From positions 1 to 40,625 of IMG/VR virus record IMGVR_UViG_3300023108_000060: a DNA stretch of 40,625 nt. The stretch is one strand, 5' to 3'. Numbering within the stretch: position 1 is the stretch's first letter; every line of letters begins with the position of its first letter. The translations under genes were made by a program, and so were the position numbers. The notes under the pieces are model-generated. The model ran no database searches and was not told the DNA's origin. It saw nothing but the letters and a program-made list of their open reading frames with translations. The stretch is from a virus. Shown piece by piece: positions 34,225 to 37,839 of the stretch.

Positions 34225-34824
34225 TTATCCAATCCCATGTATTCTACGCCATGCTACCCATGTTATAGCTTGCATCTCAAAAGCCTTCAATGCTCTACCA
34301 TTGAGCCGCACTTTCTTACCTGCCTTTACATACTCAGCTTGCAGTGTTGCATACTCTTTCTTACCTATGCTGATACTACCTGTCAAGCCTTCACGTACAC
34401 CATACGCAATGTTACGTGCATGACCATCAATAGTACAGGTATCATAGCCCATGATGTTCTGAAAGAAGCTAATAATCTTCTGCCCATTGAGGATAGTGAT
34501 TACCTCTGCCTCTGTCTCTGGCATTGCCTCTAATATACCCCAAGCCTTCGCCTTCATAGCGTGATACGTGCTTACCTTGAAGCTGTCAATATCATCACCA
34601 TTGATGAAGGCTTGCACCATGTCCAGTGTATTCTGTACGTTTCTTTCCCACCTATTATTAGGTGACAAGGCCGCACAAACACCGACCACGATATGTAAAG
34701 GTACGTCATAGTCTAGCGCAATGCGATTGCACTCTGCTAGTGCTTGAGCATACCATACAACACCATCACGCTTTTCCTCTGGTGTTGCTAGTCTATAGAT
34801 TGATATAATGTTCTCTACTGTCAT
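34225..34824 (-). CDS. HhH-GPD-like conserved phage protein (DUF7178-like, 199 aa)
   Basis: ATG 34824 (MTVENIISIYRLATPEEKRD) with GAGGAG upstream is preferred over the longer TTG frame. ALSPNNRWERNVQNTLDMVQ near residue 54 and KIISFFQNIMGYDTCTIDGH near 122, then ARNIAYG, recall the helix-hairpin-helix/GPD fold of DNA glycosylases, where the Asp in TIDGHA would take the catalytic place. I recall a phage family of this kind named DUF7178. Enzymatic activity is unproven. Confidence 0.68.
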   Translation of the reverse strand: MTVENIISIYRLATPEEKRDGVVWYAQALAECNRIALDYDVPLHIVVGVCAALSPNNRWERNVQNTLDMVQAFINGDDIDSFKVSTYHAMKAKAWGILEAMPETEAEVITILNGQKIISFFQNIMGYDTCTIDGHARNIAYGVREGLTGSISIGKKEYATLQAEYVKAGKKVRLNGRALKAFEMQAITWVAWRRIHGIG

Positions 34825-34862
34825 TACTCTACTCCTCTTTACTATACACAAGGCACAATGCC

Positions 34863-34891
34863 ATGATAAAGCATTGTCCCCTGTAAGTCAA
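34863..34891 (-). promoter_or_regulatory. Candidate host sigma-70 promoter P2
   Basis: Minus-strand TTGACT, 17 bases, TATCAT: five of six matches in each box at ideal spacing. It overlaps the stop of the 58-aa gene and would start transcripts just before the 199-aa gene. The expected start falls in the palindrome GGCA-TTG-TGCC (34852-34862), a possible operator. Confidence 0.5.
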
Positions 34892-35064
34892 ACACGTAAT
34901 GACTTAAACTGTCCTGTCAGTACATCACGGCCTACCATTAGATAGCGTGAATTACTGGACATTGTACCCTTGCGCTTGCCATAGCGATTAGTCTTGCGTC
35001 TAAACAGGACTTGCTCTGGTTTAACGATGGTGATTGTTGTTTCAGTGTTACGATTCTTTGCCAT
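34888..35064 (-). CDS. Small basic early protein (58 aa)
   Basis: Sequence MAKNRNTETTITIVKPEQVL, then FRRKTNRYGKRKGTMSSNSR and a C-terminal YLMVGRDVLTGQFKSLRV. Strongly basic, probably nucleic-acid binding. GAGGAG nine bases before ATG. It lies between two inverted copies of a 15-base sequence. No family recognised. Confidence 0.65.
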   Translation of the reverse strand: MAKNRNTETTITIVKPEQVLFRRKTNRYGKRKGTMSSNSRYLMVGRDVLTGQFKSLRV

Positions 35065-35082
35065 TGTTATCTACTCCTCTGG

Positions 35083-35217
35083 CTATACAGGCACACCATT
35101 ATGCCTTGTGTATAGTAAGAGATAGGGCTTTGTGCATGGCATACGCGTAAAGCTACACTCCACCCTATCTTGTAGCATCTCTCCGCTATACTGAATTATA
35201 CCGATTACTTTATTCAT
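35083..35217 (-). CDS. Possible first early gene (44 aa)
   Basis: Reads MNKVIGIIQYSGEMLQDRVE, then CSFTRMPCTKPYLLLYTRHN and GVPV. AGGA nine bases before ATG; stop 18 bases before the next start. Three basic residues around Cys21 and Cys28. No known family. Its end holds one arm of the 15-base inverted repeat. Could be a chance frame, though ribosome site and spacing argue for it. Confidence 0.45.
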   Translation of the reverse strand: MNKVIGIIQYSGEMLQDRVECSFTRMPCTKPYLLLYTRHNGVPV

Positions 35218-35480
35218 CTACTGTTATCCTATTGCTAGGTCTACCACTTTAAGCTTTTGACACCAATGATAGCGTTACAGTATAGCAGGTAAATAGGTGC
35301 TGGTTTTACAGCTTGGCTACCCAGACTTCACGTGATACGCTACGCCCTTGCGTTTATGACATACTCTTGCGAGTGTTAGCGTCTATTACTGGTGCAAGTT
35401 ACCTAGTATGATTAAGCTATCTGGTTTTATCTGCCTTTCTGTTTATCTTGTCTATATCGTTACATACTTTTCTAATCTTG

Positions 35481-35540
35481 TCTAGGTTTTTTTAGTCTTT
35501 CATTTATCAATCGGATAAAACCTAGAAAATCCCTTGATAA
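35481..35540 (-). ncRNA. Candidate H-type pseudoknot in the early leader RNA
   Basis: On the minus strand TTATCAA (35540-35534) pairs with TTGATAA (35510-35504), extended inside by GGAT/ATCC. The loop holds TCTAGGTTTT (35526-35517), perfectly complementary to AAAACCTAGA (35490-35481) after the hairpin. The crossing order is that of an H-type pseudoknot, or two exclusive stems. The spot is about 150 bases behind promoter P1 in an untranslated leader. Function unknown. Confidence 0.45.
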
Positions 35541-35681
35541 CTTATAGCCCTATTCTATTGACCTAAGGGCTGGCCTGTATTGTATAGCTATCCTCGCTAG
35601 GCACGTTTCACTTTATAACCTTATCGTCTACTAGGCCAAGCCCTTGTCTCTTTGGTATAAAGCTTTATTCGCTATGATTAC

Positions 35682-35710
35682 ATTAAACAACATTATTCAA
35701 ACATTGTCAA
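35682..35710 (-). promoter_or_regulatory. Candidate host sigma-70 early promoter P1
   Basis: Minus-strand TTGACA (perfect -35), 17 bases, TTTAAT (5 of 6). Directly upstream lie A/T tracts at 35711-35755 resembling an UP element. This is the best host promoter in the window and stands where T7 has its early A promoters, driving all early genes including the RNA polymerase. Confidence 0.75.
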
Positions 35711-35956
35711 ACAAAAAAACAAATAAAATTAAAAATAATTTAAAAAGTTTTGGACATTATATAGTATATACAAAAAAAATAGATAGAGAGAGACAGAAAC
35801 ACCCAAGAACCCAAGAAGTTTAGCCTGTACTAACTTTATAAGAACACCCTAGAATCCTTAGGTATGCCATAGAATCCTATGCAATCTATGCGCGAGTGTT
35901 GCAGAAATGCCACAGTGTTGCTAAGGTGTCACAGGGGGTCACGCGGTTCTACTATT

Positions 35957-35984
35957 ATTATATACCCTCTCAGATTTTTGTAAC
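35957..35984 (-). promoter_or_regulatory. Weaker host sigma-70 promoter candidate P0
   Basis: Perfect TATAAT -10 box with GTTACA (4 of 6) 16 bases upstream. The palindrome TTAGGT-G-ACCTAA (35989-36001) lies just upstream and could bind a regulator. Confidence 0.35.
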
Positions 35985-36078
35985 TATTTTAGGTCACCTA
36001 AGGCAATACAAAAGAAATACCCATATCTAGCCATCAGCTAAGAACCAGAACAACAACAACTATAGACCACTATAGAAC

Positions 36079-36158
36079 ACCCTAGTATTACTAGGGTATT
36101 CTTTAGTATATATTATAGTTAGTTTCAAAGGGGGGCTTGTCCTAGATGTAACTTTAGA
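36079..36158 (-). repeat. Right arm of a long inverted repeat (element B)
   Basis: On the minus strand: promoter motif TCTAAAGTTACATC (36158-36145), 10 bases, the 21-base block shared with element A (36134-36114), 16 bases, then palindrome ACCCTAGTA-A-TACTAGGGT (36097-36079). Same order and same 10-base spacing as at 31620-31691, opposite orientation. The motif includes the terminase stop codon. Confidence 0.8.
36145..36158 (-). promoter_or_regulatory. Putative phage RNA polymerase promoter (phiOR position)
   Basis: TCTAAAGTTACATC followed by TAGGAC, overlapping the terminase stop. Directed away from the terminase into the presumed end region, as T7 phiOR is. The GTTACATCTAG core resembles the SP6 promoter core GTGACACTATAG with one base less, which supports the assigned direction. 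Confidence 0.68.
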
Positions 36159-37839
36159 TTTGTATCCACCCATCATTGCTAGTAGATTTACTACCAAAAT
36201 TGAAGCTAGACATGAACTTATCTAGTTCTTCATCTAGTAATTCTTCCTTACGTACCATTATCTCGTTATCAGCATCAGCAGCCATCTGGTCAACCCAGTA
36301 CTGTACTGCCATAGCTAGTACATCAAGTCTATCATCATGGGCTAATGCACCACGTACCTTCGTGATACGTGTCATCTGATAGGTAAGCATATACTTAATA
36401 CCCTTATCAGGTGGCATACTCTGTACACTATCGTAGTCTTTCTGTATTACCTTAGGGTCTATTATAAGCCTATGCTGGTTCATAACAGGTTCTAAGGTGT
36501 CAATGATACGACTTTCCTTCTGTGTATTATGCCTGACCTCTTCTATGGTACATGGATAGGTCTTAATCATGTATGGCTTTAGCAGTTCAGTGAACATACC
36601 ATCACCAAAGTTACTCTCAATGAGTACCATATTGACCTGATGTATCTTAGCTAGGTCTGTAAGGTGCTGTAGTGTAGCGTCAGAGTACCCACCCTCAACA
36701 CCACCAGCATCCACCACGTACAGAAAACCATTAAGCATCTTAACAACAGCATAAGCTGTCTCGTCACTACCTCTACCAGAAGGGTCAATAGCCAGAACAG
36801 AGCCAGTATACTTAGCCCTACCTATGGTATCCTCAGGTGCGTAGTACTTATCTCCACTCAGACCCACGTTAGGAATGTCAGACACTGGCTTCATAATACC
36901 ATACACCATCTTTTCAGGTGCTGTATCCTTGTCACAAGACATAATCATCAAGTCTGCTAGTTTAAGTGGGTACTTATTAGCGTCAGATAGGGAAGTGTCC
37001 AGCATAAACTGCAAAGCAAAGCCACTACGCCCATAACTTAACTCTCTTTCCAGTAGGTCTTCGTCATCAAAGCGTTTCTCGTCCGTAGGAAGGCCGTAGA
37101 GTGCGCTTCCTTTGTCCTGTAGTAGGTTGTATAGCGTAGGAGCAAGACGGCCACCATACGCCTTCTCAGCGCGTTCTAGGGTAGGATACCTAGCTGGCCA
37201 CACTCTCATCTCATATCCACGTGACAGGAGTACGTTATACAGGCTCATCTCGTTCTGAGGTGTACCAAGATAGATAATCTTACCATCAGGCTTAAGAACA
37301 GCGTCAAATTCCTTAACAGTCTCCCCAAGCTTCTCACGCATCATGTGTGTCATGGAGTTGTTTGGTACTTCCACGTCATCAGCAATGATGATGTCAGCAC
37401 GTGAACCTGTAAGCTGTCCAGTAACACCCACAGACTTAACTGAGGGACTACCAGATGCTTTAGCTGGTGCTACATCAAAGGCAATCTTAGACCATCTCTG
37501 TCCATCTTTAGCAATCAAATGCTGACATATAGGAAGTTCAGTGATGATACGCTGCGTAAACGTAGAGAAGTCATCAGCACGTGCCTTAGACGCTGACACA
37601 ACCATAAACTTAAGCTGTGGGTCTAGCAGTAGCTGGTGTACTACGTATGCAGCAGTGATGTAGGACTTACCCACACCACGAAATGCCTCAATAATACTAC
37701 GCTTGGGACTTGTCTGCAAATAATGTGCAATATCGTACTGCACTGGTGTAGGCTCTGGTAGACCTAAGTGTTGCCATACTAAGTATGTAAAGTTCCTAAA
37801 GTCTCTCAGAGCCTCAGGGATTGCGTTCTCTTGTTGCAT
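36154..37839 (-). CDS. Terminase large subunit, T7 gp19-like (561 aa)
   Basis: ATPase: Walker A FRGVGKSY (K58), Walker B ADIIIADDVEVPNN (about 148-161), coupling region GTPQNE near 192. Nuclease: D352 in LAIDPSGRGSDETAY, E409 in LIESNFGDG, D503/D506 in HDDRLDVLA, the RNase H-like set of phage terminases. T7 gp19 has 586 aa. Packages concatemeric DNA through the portal and cuts at the terminal repeats. Ends with an Ile codon followed by TAA inside the phiOR-like motif. Confidence 0.95.
   Translation of the reverse strand: MQQENAIPEALRDFRNFTYLVWQHLGLPEPTPVQYDIAHYLQTSPKRSIIEAFRGVGKSYITAAYVVHQLLLDPQLKFMVVSASKARADDFSTFTQRIITELPICQHLIAKDGQRWSKIAFDVAPAKASGSPSVKSVGVTGQLTGSRADIIIADDVEVPNNSMTHMMREKLGETVKEFDAVLKPDGKIIYLGTPQNEMSLYNVLLSRGYEMRVWPARYPTLERAEKAYGGRLAPTLYNLLQDKGSALYGLPTDEKRFDDEDLLERELSYGRSGFALQFMLDTSLSDANKYPLKLADLMIMSCDKDTAPEKMVYGIMKPVSDIPNVGLSGDKYYAPEDTIGRAKYTGSVLAIDPSGRGSDETAYAVVKMLNGFLYVVDAGGVEGGYSDATLQHLTDLAKIHQVNMVLIESNFGDGMFTELLKPYMIKTYPCTIEEVRHNTQKESRIIDTLEPVMNQHRLIIDPKVIQKDYDSVQSMPPDKGIKYMLTYQMTRITKVRGALAHDDRLDVLAMAVQYWVDQMAADADNEIMVRKEELLDEELDKFMSSFNFGSKSTSNDGWIQI

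Follow-up and report, generated by a model that had tools for sequence, protein, structure and literature searches.

A predicted hairpin and H-type pseudoknot in the early leader RNA of T7-like and other phages

The locus and its untranslated leader

The DNA analysed here, referred to as the window, is a stretch of 40,625 nucleotides from a virus record, and its main genes lie on the minus strand. TerL, a protein of 561 aa with a Terminase-T7 RNaseH-like domain, ends at 36154 (minus strand). Downstream of it, no gene is recognised for about 940 bases; two small ORFs (44 and 58 aa), neither of which has a PHROG or Pfam match, come next, and then the gene of a DUF7178 protein. A T7-type RNA polymerase is encoded still further downstream on the same strand. 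By TerL DNA, the closest isolates are mostly Roseobacter and Pelagibacter phages (among 60 of 181 records listed).

Two other features of this region were observed. The T7-type RNA polymerase is distributed over two ORFs of 272 and 549 aa that share an ATGA overlap (31636-30818 and 30821-29172, both on the minus strand), and the same frame change is kept in two related phages (loci L415, 4427-6861, and L416, 4496-6936). A sequencing error is therefore unlikely, and the enzyme may be a two-piece polymerase. Additionally, the 58-aa ORF is flanked by a 22-nt inverted repeat that is 95% complementary (34839-34860 and 35097-35118).

The features of the gene-free region are listed in Table 1. The consensus scan, which demands an A at position 2 of the second hexamer, did not list the proposed early host promoter P1, whose second hexamer has none there. 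Its boxes are also present in L003 and L004, in which the block 35797-35671 is 88-91% identical. Counted from the start predicted near 35675, the leader would run for about 458 nt up to the 44-aa ORF at 35217, or for about 610 nt if the 58-aa ORF at 35064 is the first gene. A leader of about 450 bases, as given in the preliminary description of this DNA, is thus correct for a start at P1 and the 44-aa ORF as first gene. The second promoter-like site, P2, shares 4 nt of its -35 box with the end of stem S2, and the first ORF of at least 40 aa starts 263 nt past S2. Over 34850-36200, the consensus scan showed no terminator-like site on the minus strand, and control of a terminator, one of the roles initially suggested for the knot, would find no such site nearby.

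Among the conserved noncoding pieces shared with many relatives is the block TCTGTCTCTCTCTATCTATTTTTTTT (35797-35771, minus strand), which we take to resemble the class II pause/concatemer-junction signal of T7-like phages. Another such block, TCTGAGAGGGTATATAATAATAG (35992-35933, minus strand), is possibly a promoter of the phage polymerase.

Table 1. Coordinates of the RNA element and of the neighbouring features in the window
Feature	Position	Strand	Remarks
P1, proposed early host promoter TTGACA - 17 nt - TTTAAT	35710-35682	minus	read directly; predicted start near 35675
P0 hairpin, stem AGCCCT/AGGGCT (35571-35566 with 35551-35546)	35571-35546	minus	stem covaries in relatives
P0 loop TAGGTCAATAGAAT	35565-35552	minus	14 nt, conserved
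S1a 5' strand TTATCAA	35540-35534	minus	7 bp with S1a 3' strand
S1b 5' strand GGAT, inner helix	35532-35529	minus	4 bp with ATCC
S2 5' strand TCTAGGTTTT, in hairpin loop	35526-35517	minus	10 bp with AAAACCTAGA
S1b 3' strand ATCC	35516-35513	minus	
S1a 3' strand TTGATAA	35510-35504	minus	
Linking loop L3 ATGAAAGACTAAA	35503-35491	minus	13 nt
S2 3' strand AAAACCTAGA	35490-35481	minus	
P2, sigma70-like site TAGACA - 17 nt - AACGAT	35484-35456	minus	weak, 8/12 consensus positions
First small ORF past the leader, 44 aa	35217-35083	minus	no family match
DUF7178 protein	34851-34225	minus	

Architecture of the element and the evidence for its pairing

The element is predicted to be a bipartite RNA of about 91 nt, transcribed from the minus strand, in which the hairpin P0 is followed by an H-type pseudoknot. 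The preliminary description had reported a hairpin of 7 and 4 bp, a 10-base stretch in its loop complementary to a downstream strand, a linking loop of 13 bases and the crossing order of these parts at 35481-35540, all of which are present to the base. The knot lies where it had been placed; the whole element is larger, as it includes P0. The inner helix S1b is GGC/GCC in the larger subfamily, and none was drawn for L019 and L023. In the window, S1b may compete with the full 10-bp S2. In an alignment of 15 versions, the GA of L3 (35501-35500) and the first AAA of the S2 3' strand do not vary.

By energy alone, the knot of the window is only moderately unusual. Stems S1 and S2 as strong as those observed arose in 0 of 1000 dinucleotide shuffles of its own 65-nt segment and in 6 of 400 shuffles of the whole 456-nt leader. 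For each of 16 versions, the stem energies were reached by 0 to 19 of 1000 segment shuffles. Nested folding of the window element is ordinary (z -0.37, with 73 of 200 shuffles as good), a caution that real pseudoknot elements can escape nested folding scores. Because the energy is moderately special and the nested folding ordinary, comparison with relatives had to decide.

Counting the window, this comparison yielded 17 distinct versions of the element from 24 virus records. Among the 80 loci surrounding the closest TerL genes, DNA similarity across the whole element is confined to L007; it carries one compensated S1 pair (A-T to G-C), with S2 as in the window. In L113, L114 and L115, both stems are replaced yet paired (S1 CTAACAA/TTGTTAG, S2 GATAATTTTT/AAAAATTATC), and the same three loci revealed that the element starts earlier, with P0, whose stem covaries around the constant loop TAGGYCAATAGAAT. 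The set is extended by L019, L023, L123, L126 and L145. L019, L023 and L026, likewise among the 80 loci, were recognised afterwards through P0.

Sixteen versions were cut by hand into segments, all of which stand verbatim in their loci. L007, whose S1a is bulged, is omitted from the S1a column counts. Since the stems were hand-drawn, the lack of mismatches in P0, S1a and S2 of this table is by construction, and the evidence for the structure consists of permutation, shuffle and automatic tests. When the own strands of each stem were compared with strands exchanged among distinct types, the mean energy for S2 (10 types) was -8.0 versus -2.7 kcal/mol, with 0 of 100,000 permutations as good. Similarly, S1a (12 types) gave -6.3 versus -0.7 kcal/mol (0 of 100,000), and P0 (8 types) gave -6.6 versus -2.8 kcal/mol (4 of 100,000).

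Covariation was also counted in MAFFT alignments built without structure. For the larger subfamily, represented by nine versions, pairing is 100% in P0 and S1a, and both sides have changed in 6 of 11 pairs; the covariation score was as high in 0 of 500 shuffles, and a slide by one column lowered pairing to 28-40%. Four versions with S2 in register are 98.9% paired (0 of 500 shuffles as high), with a change on both sides in only 1 of 8 S2 pairs. The six versions of the window's subfamily reach 81.8%, again with 0 of 500 shuffles as high, counts that are lowered by L019 and L023 standing out of register. Four further versions are nearly identical to one another and carry no information on covariation, the score being equalled in 88 of 500 shuffles. 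Further pair types were not outstanding (68, 63 and 14 of 500 shuffles for the six-, nine- and four-version alignments, respectively), nor were pairs with both sides changed in the six-version alignment (25 of 500).

The element can also be retrieved automatically. A pattern of P0 only, blind to S1 and S2, found 20 stretches in IMG/VR and 27 in GTDB genomes, and the sequence behind it was scanned for crossing stems starting no more than 15 nt past the end of the pattern. Of the 20 viral stretches, which represent 13 distinct elements, 19 show such stems behind P0; the twentieth, L423, is truncated where its extracted piece ends, and the same record is complete in L133. They also follow in 6 of the 27 GTDB stretches, where the stems are unrelated to those of the element. 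In L420, the best-scoring S2 of the scan differs from the hand-drawn one. Moreover, a covariance model of P0 and S1a, made from nine versions of the other subfamily only, recovers the window (E 8e-7) as well as L019, L023, L113 and L115 (E 7e-7 to 9e-12), with L007 only at E 0.68. This model also uncovered a new version outside the 16 tabulated, L358 (the same as L146), in which P0 itself is rebuilt and S2 is close to that of L418. A single pattern describes the 14-nt loop of P0 in 14 of the 17 versions, even as the stem changes, although 13 of the versions were retrieved with that very pattern.

Other searches added little. The 12 stretches matching a pattern of S2 alone include L083, which comes from the same record as L007; no other was named by the descriptor scan. 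A loose linker pattern with at least 120 matches contributed only L222 and L244 among the matches listed, both of them records of known versions, and a second linker pattern (45 stretches) met the element only in known loci among the distinct contexts listed. In isolate genomes, the element was not matched by distant searches with L019, L126, L132 and L113 as queries, and in the listed records (60 of 181), TerL was the only part of the window's region to match. A generic pseudoknot descriptor run over the collected loci produced 32 matches, mostly unrelated. Besides L007, the covariance model had 17 weak matches (E 0.16 to 4.7), and the eight that were inspected contain no such element; L372, a weak match, has a loose crossing pair unlike it. 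L125 was rejected as a carrier, having a long hairpin of another kind instead.

Two crossing stems, each with compensated changes, are what distinguishes an H-type pseudoknot, and covariation with relatives, the check proposed at the outset, strongly supports this reading. Lack of covariation combined with a folding energy no better than that of shuffled sequence had been named as the outcome that would speak against it; nested folding is indeed no better (z -0.37), but covariation is present, so that the two do not coincide. The stretch almost certainly encodes a structured RNA, composed of P0 with its conserved loop and an H-type pseudoknot, in the untranslated early leader. As judged from the compensated changes, the predicted structure is under selection at the level of RNA.

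An optional module of unlike phages

The element is found in two unlike groups, T7-like phages and a second group. In T7-like phages, it separates terL from the first early genes; a T7-type TerL is encoded by the window, L007, L019 and L023, and split T7-type polymerase genes occur in the window, L415 and L416. Within the second group, L425 has a different terminase, and L418 has an integrase, a DnaB-like helicase and a DNA polymerase. A long region that separates leftward from rightward genes harbours the element in L113, L126, L132 and L145. No T7-type TerL was seen in 22 loci of the other versions (L358 being outside this set), which is no proof, as these loci are fragments.

Upstream of DUF7178, the element occurs in 16 of 89 distinct leader regions, near-identical phages included (15 exact matches and L358). 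It is missing from the other 73 and is thus not generally needed. A DUF7178 tree of 83 rows, 16 of them with the element, requires at least 11 label changes, or 7 when only well supported branches are counted, compared with 14.9 on average for shuffled labels (2 of 500 as few). The element is clustered on this tree but does not form one clade. Related pairs with and without it are L115 and L112, whose flanks are 89% and 94% identical, L126 and L125, and the window and L031. The DUF7178 proteins of L344 and L343, which are records of L126 and L125, are identical, with the element present in the former and absent from the latter. The alignment of the window with L031 is poor past the missing module, where BLAST pieces and the sequence itself do align. 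On this comparative evidence, the element is an optional module common to at least two unlike phage groups.

Other structures were noticed in related leaders. Some relatives have a different hairpin about where the pseudoknot sits, for example GTTAGTTTAGA/TCTAAACTAAC, with varying stems and a similar loop around CGGT..AAT..TCC (L002 from 2781, L003 from 5546, L004 from 7255, L049 from 4255, L094 from 221 and L096 from 299). L116, L123, L127, L132 and others carry a second leader hairpin, with the loop GAAGSCGAATTGAT on three different 6-bp stems in four contexts, as well as a third one with the loop AACCGCYAMGGCAAYVT and short stems. The leaders of these phages look like strings of structured cassettes.

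Possible roles in early expression and comparison with known RNAs

A promoter-like site usually accompanies the knot. In 10 of 16 versions, or 11 of 17 with L358, the first base of a sigma70-like TTGAC box lies at an offset of -1 to +2 nt relative to the point where S2 ends. The window and L007 (2 of 16) have a TAGACA box with a 4-nt overlap with S2, and in four of the 16 the offset is +15 (L019, L023) or +16 (L412, L414). A -10-like hexamer follows 17-18 nt on in 14 of 16 versions at a lax threshold (7 of 12), and the consensus scan gave no upstream promoter for several versions and a different site for others. By gene position, the element lies in the early leader, usually at a fixed spot before a P2-like site. 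In L112, L125 and L031, which lack the element, the flanks and the -35 box are kept and the box stands behind an A-tract, from which it follows that the A-run of the S2 3' strand occupies the A-tract position. A simple pattern of A-tract and TTGAC anywhere in the locus is found in 31 of the 73 leaders without the element, some of these matches being plainly outside the leader. The A-rich S2 3' strand probably doubles, as DNA, as an A-tract upstream of P2, and the fixed place of the element could simply reflect the A-tract that P2 needs.

Its position suggests that the element probably helps to control early gene expression. The leading, though tentative, proposal, drawn by analogy with the put RNA of phage HK022, is that it acts in cis during transcription, on the host RNA polymerase. 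Host polymerase starting from P1 would transcribe P0 and the pseudoknot, both of which would fold on leaving the exit channel, with the active site then inside P2. The folded RNA might block backtracking or sigma-dependent pausing at P2 and would keep the polymerase fast and resistant to pausing and termination, so that P2 would be cleared and the early region read through. Such action would be put-like, with the pseudoknot replacing the second hairpin of put. Several points weigh against this proposal: the action on RNA polymerase comes from analogy, the -35 box lies 15 or 16 nt off in 4 of 16 versions and is weak in the window, the consensus scan shows no local terminator on the minus strand, and 73 of 89 leader regions do without the element.

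Alternatively, the knot might be a stability element that blocks decay by an RNase J-type 5'-3' exonuclease or by RNase E scanning, allowing the early RNA to survive. A compact knotted fold within a long leader would suit this role, and flaviviral exonuclease-resistant RNAs, as presented in PMC5760640, offer a precedent of principle. However, the element would lie about 100 nt inside the predicted P1 transcript, P2 transcripts would start downstream and lack the knot, and in some relatives other hairpins take the same place; this reading is considered rather unlikely. The probability is similarly low that P0 and the knot form a trans-acting early RNA that binds a host factor or a defence protein, for instance as a decoy for a pseudoknotted antitoxin RNA. 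The P0 loop pattern recurring on varying stems (14 of 17 versions, 13 retrieved with that pattern) would fit such binding, as would the patchy presence, which is as for host-interaction genes, and type III antitoxin RNAs are described as pseudoknots (PMC8860590, PMC5086642). Yet the window has no tandem array, Rfam gave no antitoxin-type match at E up to 10, the consensus scan places no terminator behind the element, and the P0 loop is without a complement in the window beyond chance.

The remaining explanations carry far less weight. The hairpin with an H-type pseudoknot, the conserved unpaired bases and the leader position recall aptamer architecture, and in L113 and L115 a 72-aa ORF follows 57 nt past S2, but a ligand-sensing riboswitch or attenuator is very unlikely in view of the distance of 263 nt to the window's first ORF of at least 40 aa, a minus strand on which the consensus scan lists no terminator and the lack of an Rfam riboswitch hit. 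If the element worked as DNA, being an operator or UP-element for P2 with incidental RNA pairing, or a mark of the terminal repeat as first suggested, it would be understandable that, in 12 of 16 versions, the -35 box directly adjoins the S2 3' strand or shares bases with it, and that the A-run of this strand stands at the A-tract position of relatives. A protein operator would keep its sequence, whereas S1 and S2 change wholesale with pairing kept, and it is hard to see what two inverted repeats in crossing order would do in double-stranded DNA. Since the second phage group, in which a different terminase (L425), an integrase (L418) and a control-region position are found, has the element too, a terminal-repeat mark in particular becomes less likely, and action as DNA is judged highly improbable overall. 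Chance pairing in AT-rich sequence could draw on the equally strong crossing pairs in 6 of 400 shuffled leaders and on the nested z of -0.37, but it is contradicted by recurrence with compensated stems in other versions, which leaves it a negligible probability.

In Rfam 15, no family matched the element at the gathering threshold, either in the whole window or in seven member loci; the sole hit in these loci was a tRNA that lies elsewhere. Relaxing the cutoff to E 10 gave four hits, all far below threshold and none credible. No description of the element was found in the titles and opening lines of abstracts of papers on phage leader and structured RNAs. As far as these searches go, it represents a new RNA family. 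Its general type, structured RNAs containing an H-type pseudoknot, is known, but the location is unusual. In effect, a covariation-supported pseudoknot RNA family, unmatched in Rfam 15 for the loci tested, is added to phage early leaders.

Some known RNAs share part of this architecture. Riboswitches of the SAM-II kind have two crossing stems and an A-rich linking loop. The element has both features, but it has no Rfam match, and identity with SAM-II, considered because of this resemblance, was dropped for that reason. It is also reminiscent of type III antitoxin RNAs of the ToxI kind, described as small pseudoknotted RNAs of phage-host conflict; unlike these, it shows no tandem copies at 34600-36300 of the window. 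In the neighbouring ORFs of 44 and 58 aa, PHROG and Pfam recognise no toxin. Flaviviral exonuclease-resistant RNAs, with their protective fold, are a possible working analogue, from which the element differs in lacking such an Rfam match and in its hosts and nucleases.

The HK022 put RNA, as described in PMC9378689, is an early-leader RNA of about 70 nt with two stem-loops. Bound to the zinc-binding domain of the RNA polymerase subunit beta', it counteracts pausing and termination; one pause it relieves lies 21 nt past stem II, with spacing being important. Like putL and putR, the element is a bipartite phage RNA of similar size, a predicted product of host RNA polymerase, and its gene position indicates the same early-leader location. 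Additionally, its promoter-like element lies a short and often fixed distance downstream, comparable to the pause at 21 nt of put (PMC9378689). Measured against the published description of put, the element differs in its length of about 91 nt and in combining a hairpin with an H-type pseudoknot instead of two stem-loops, and the word pseudoknot is absent from the main text of PMC9378689. The element is accordingly likened to put in its probable mode of working but is not counted as a member of the put family. The three natural pairs with and without the element, together with the usually tight link to a promoter-like site, make it a testable question whether RNA alone steers host RNA polymerase in phages besides HK022. 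It is conceivable, albeit doubtful, that the element constitutes a protein-free family of pseudoknot RNAs that reprogrammes host RNA polymerase early in infection, as an exchangeable cassette of unlike phages. If true, this would be a second, structurally distinct answer to the task performed by HK022 put.
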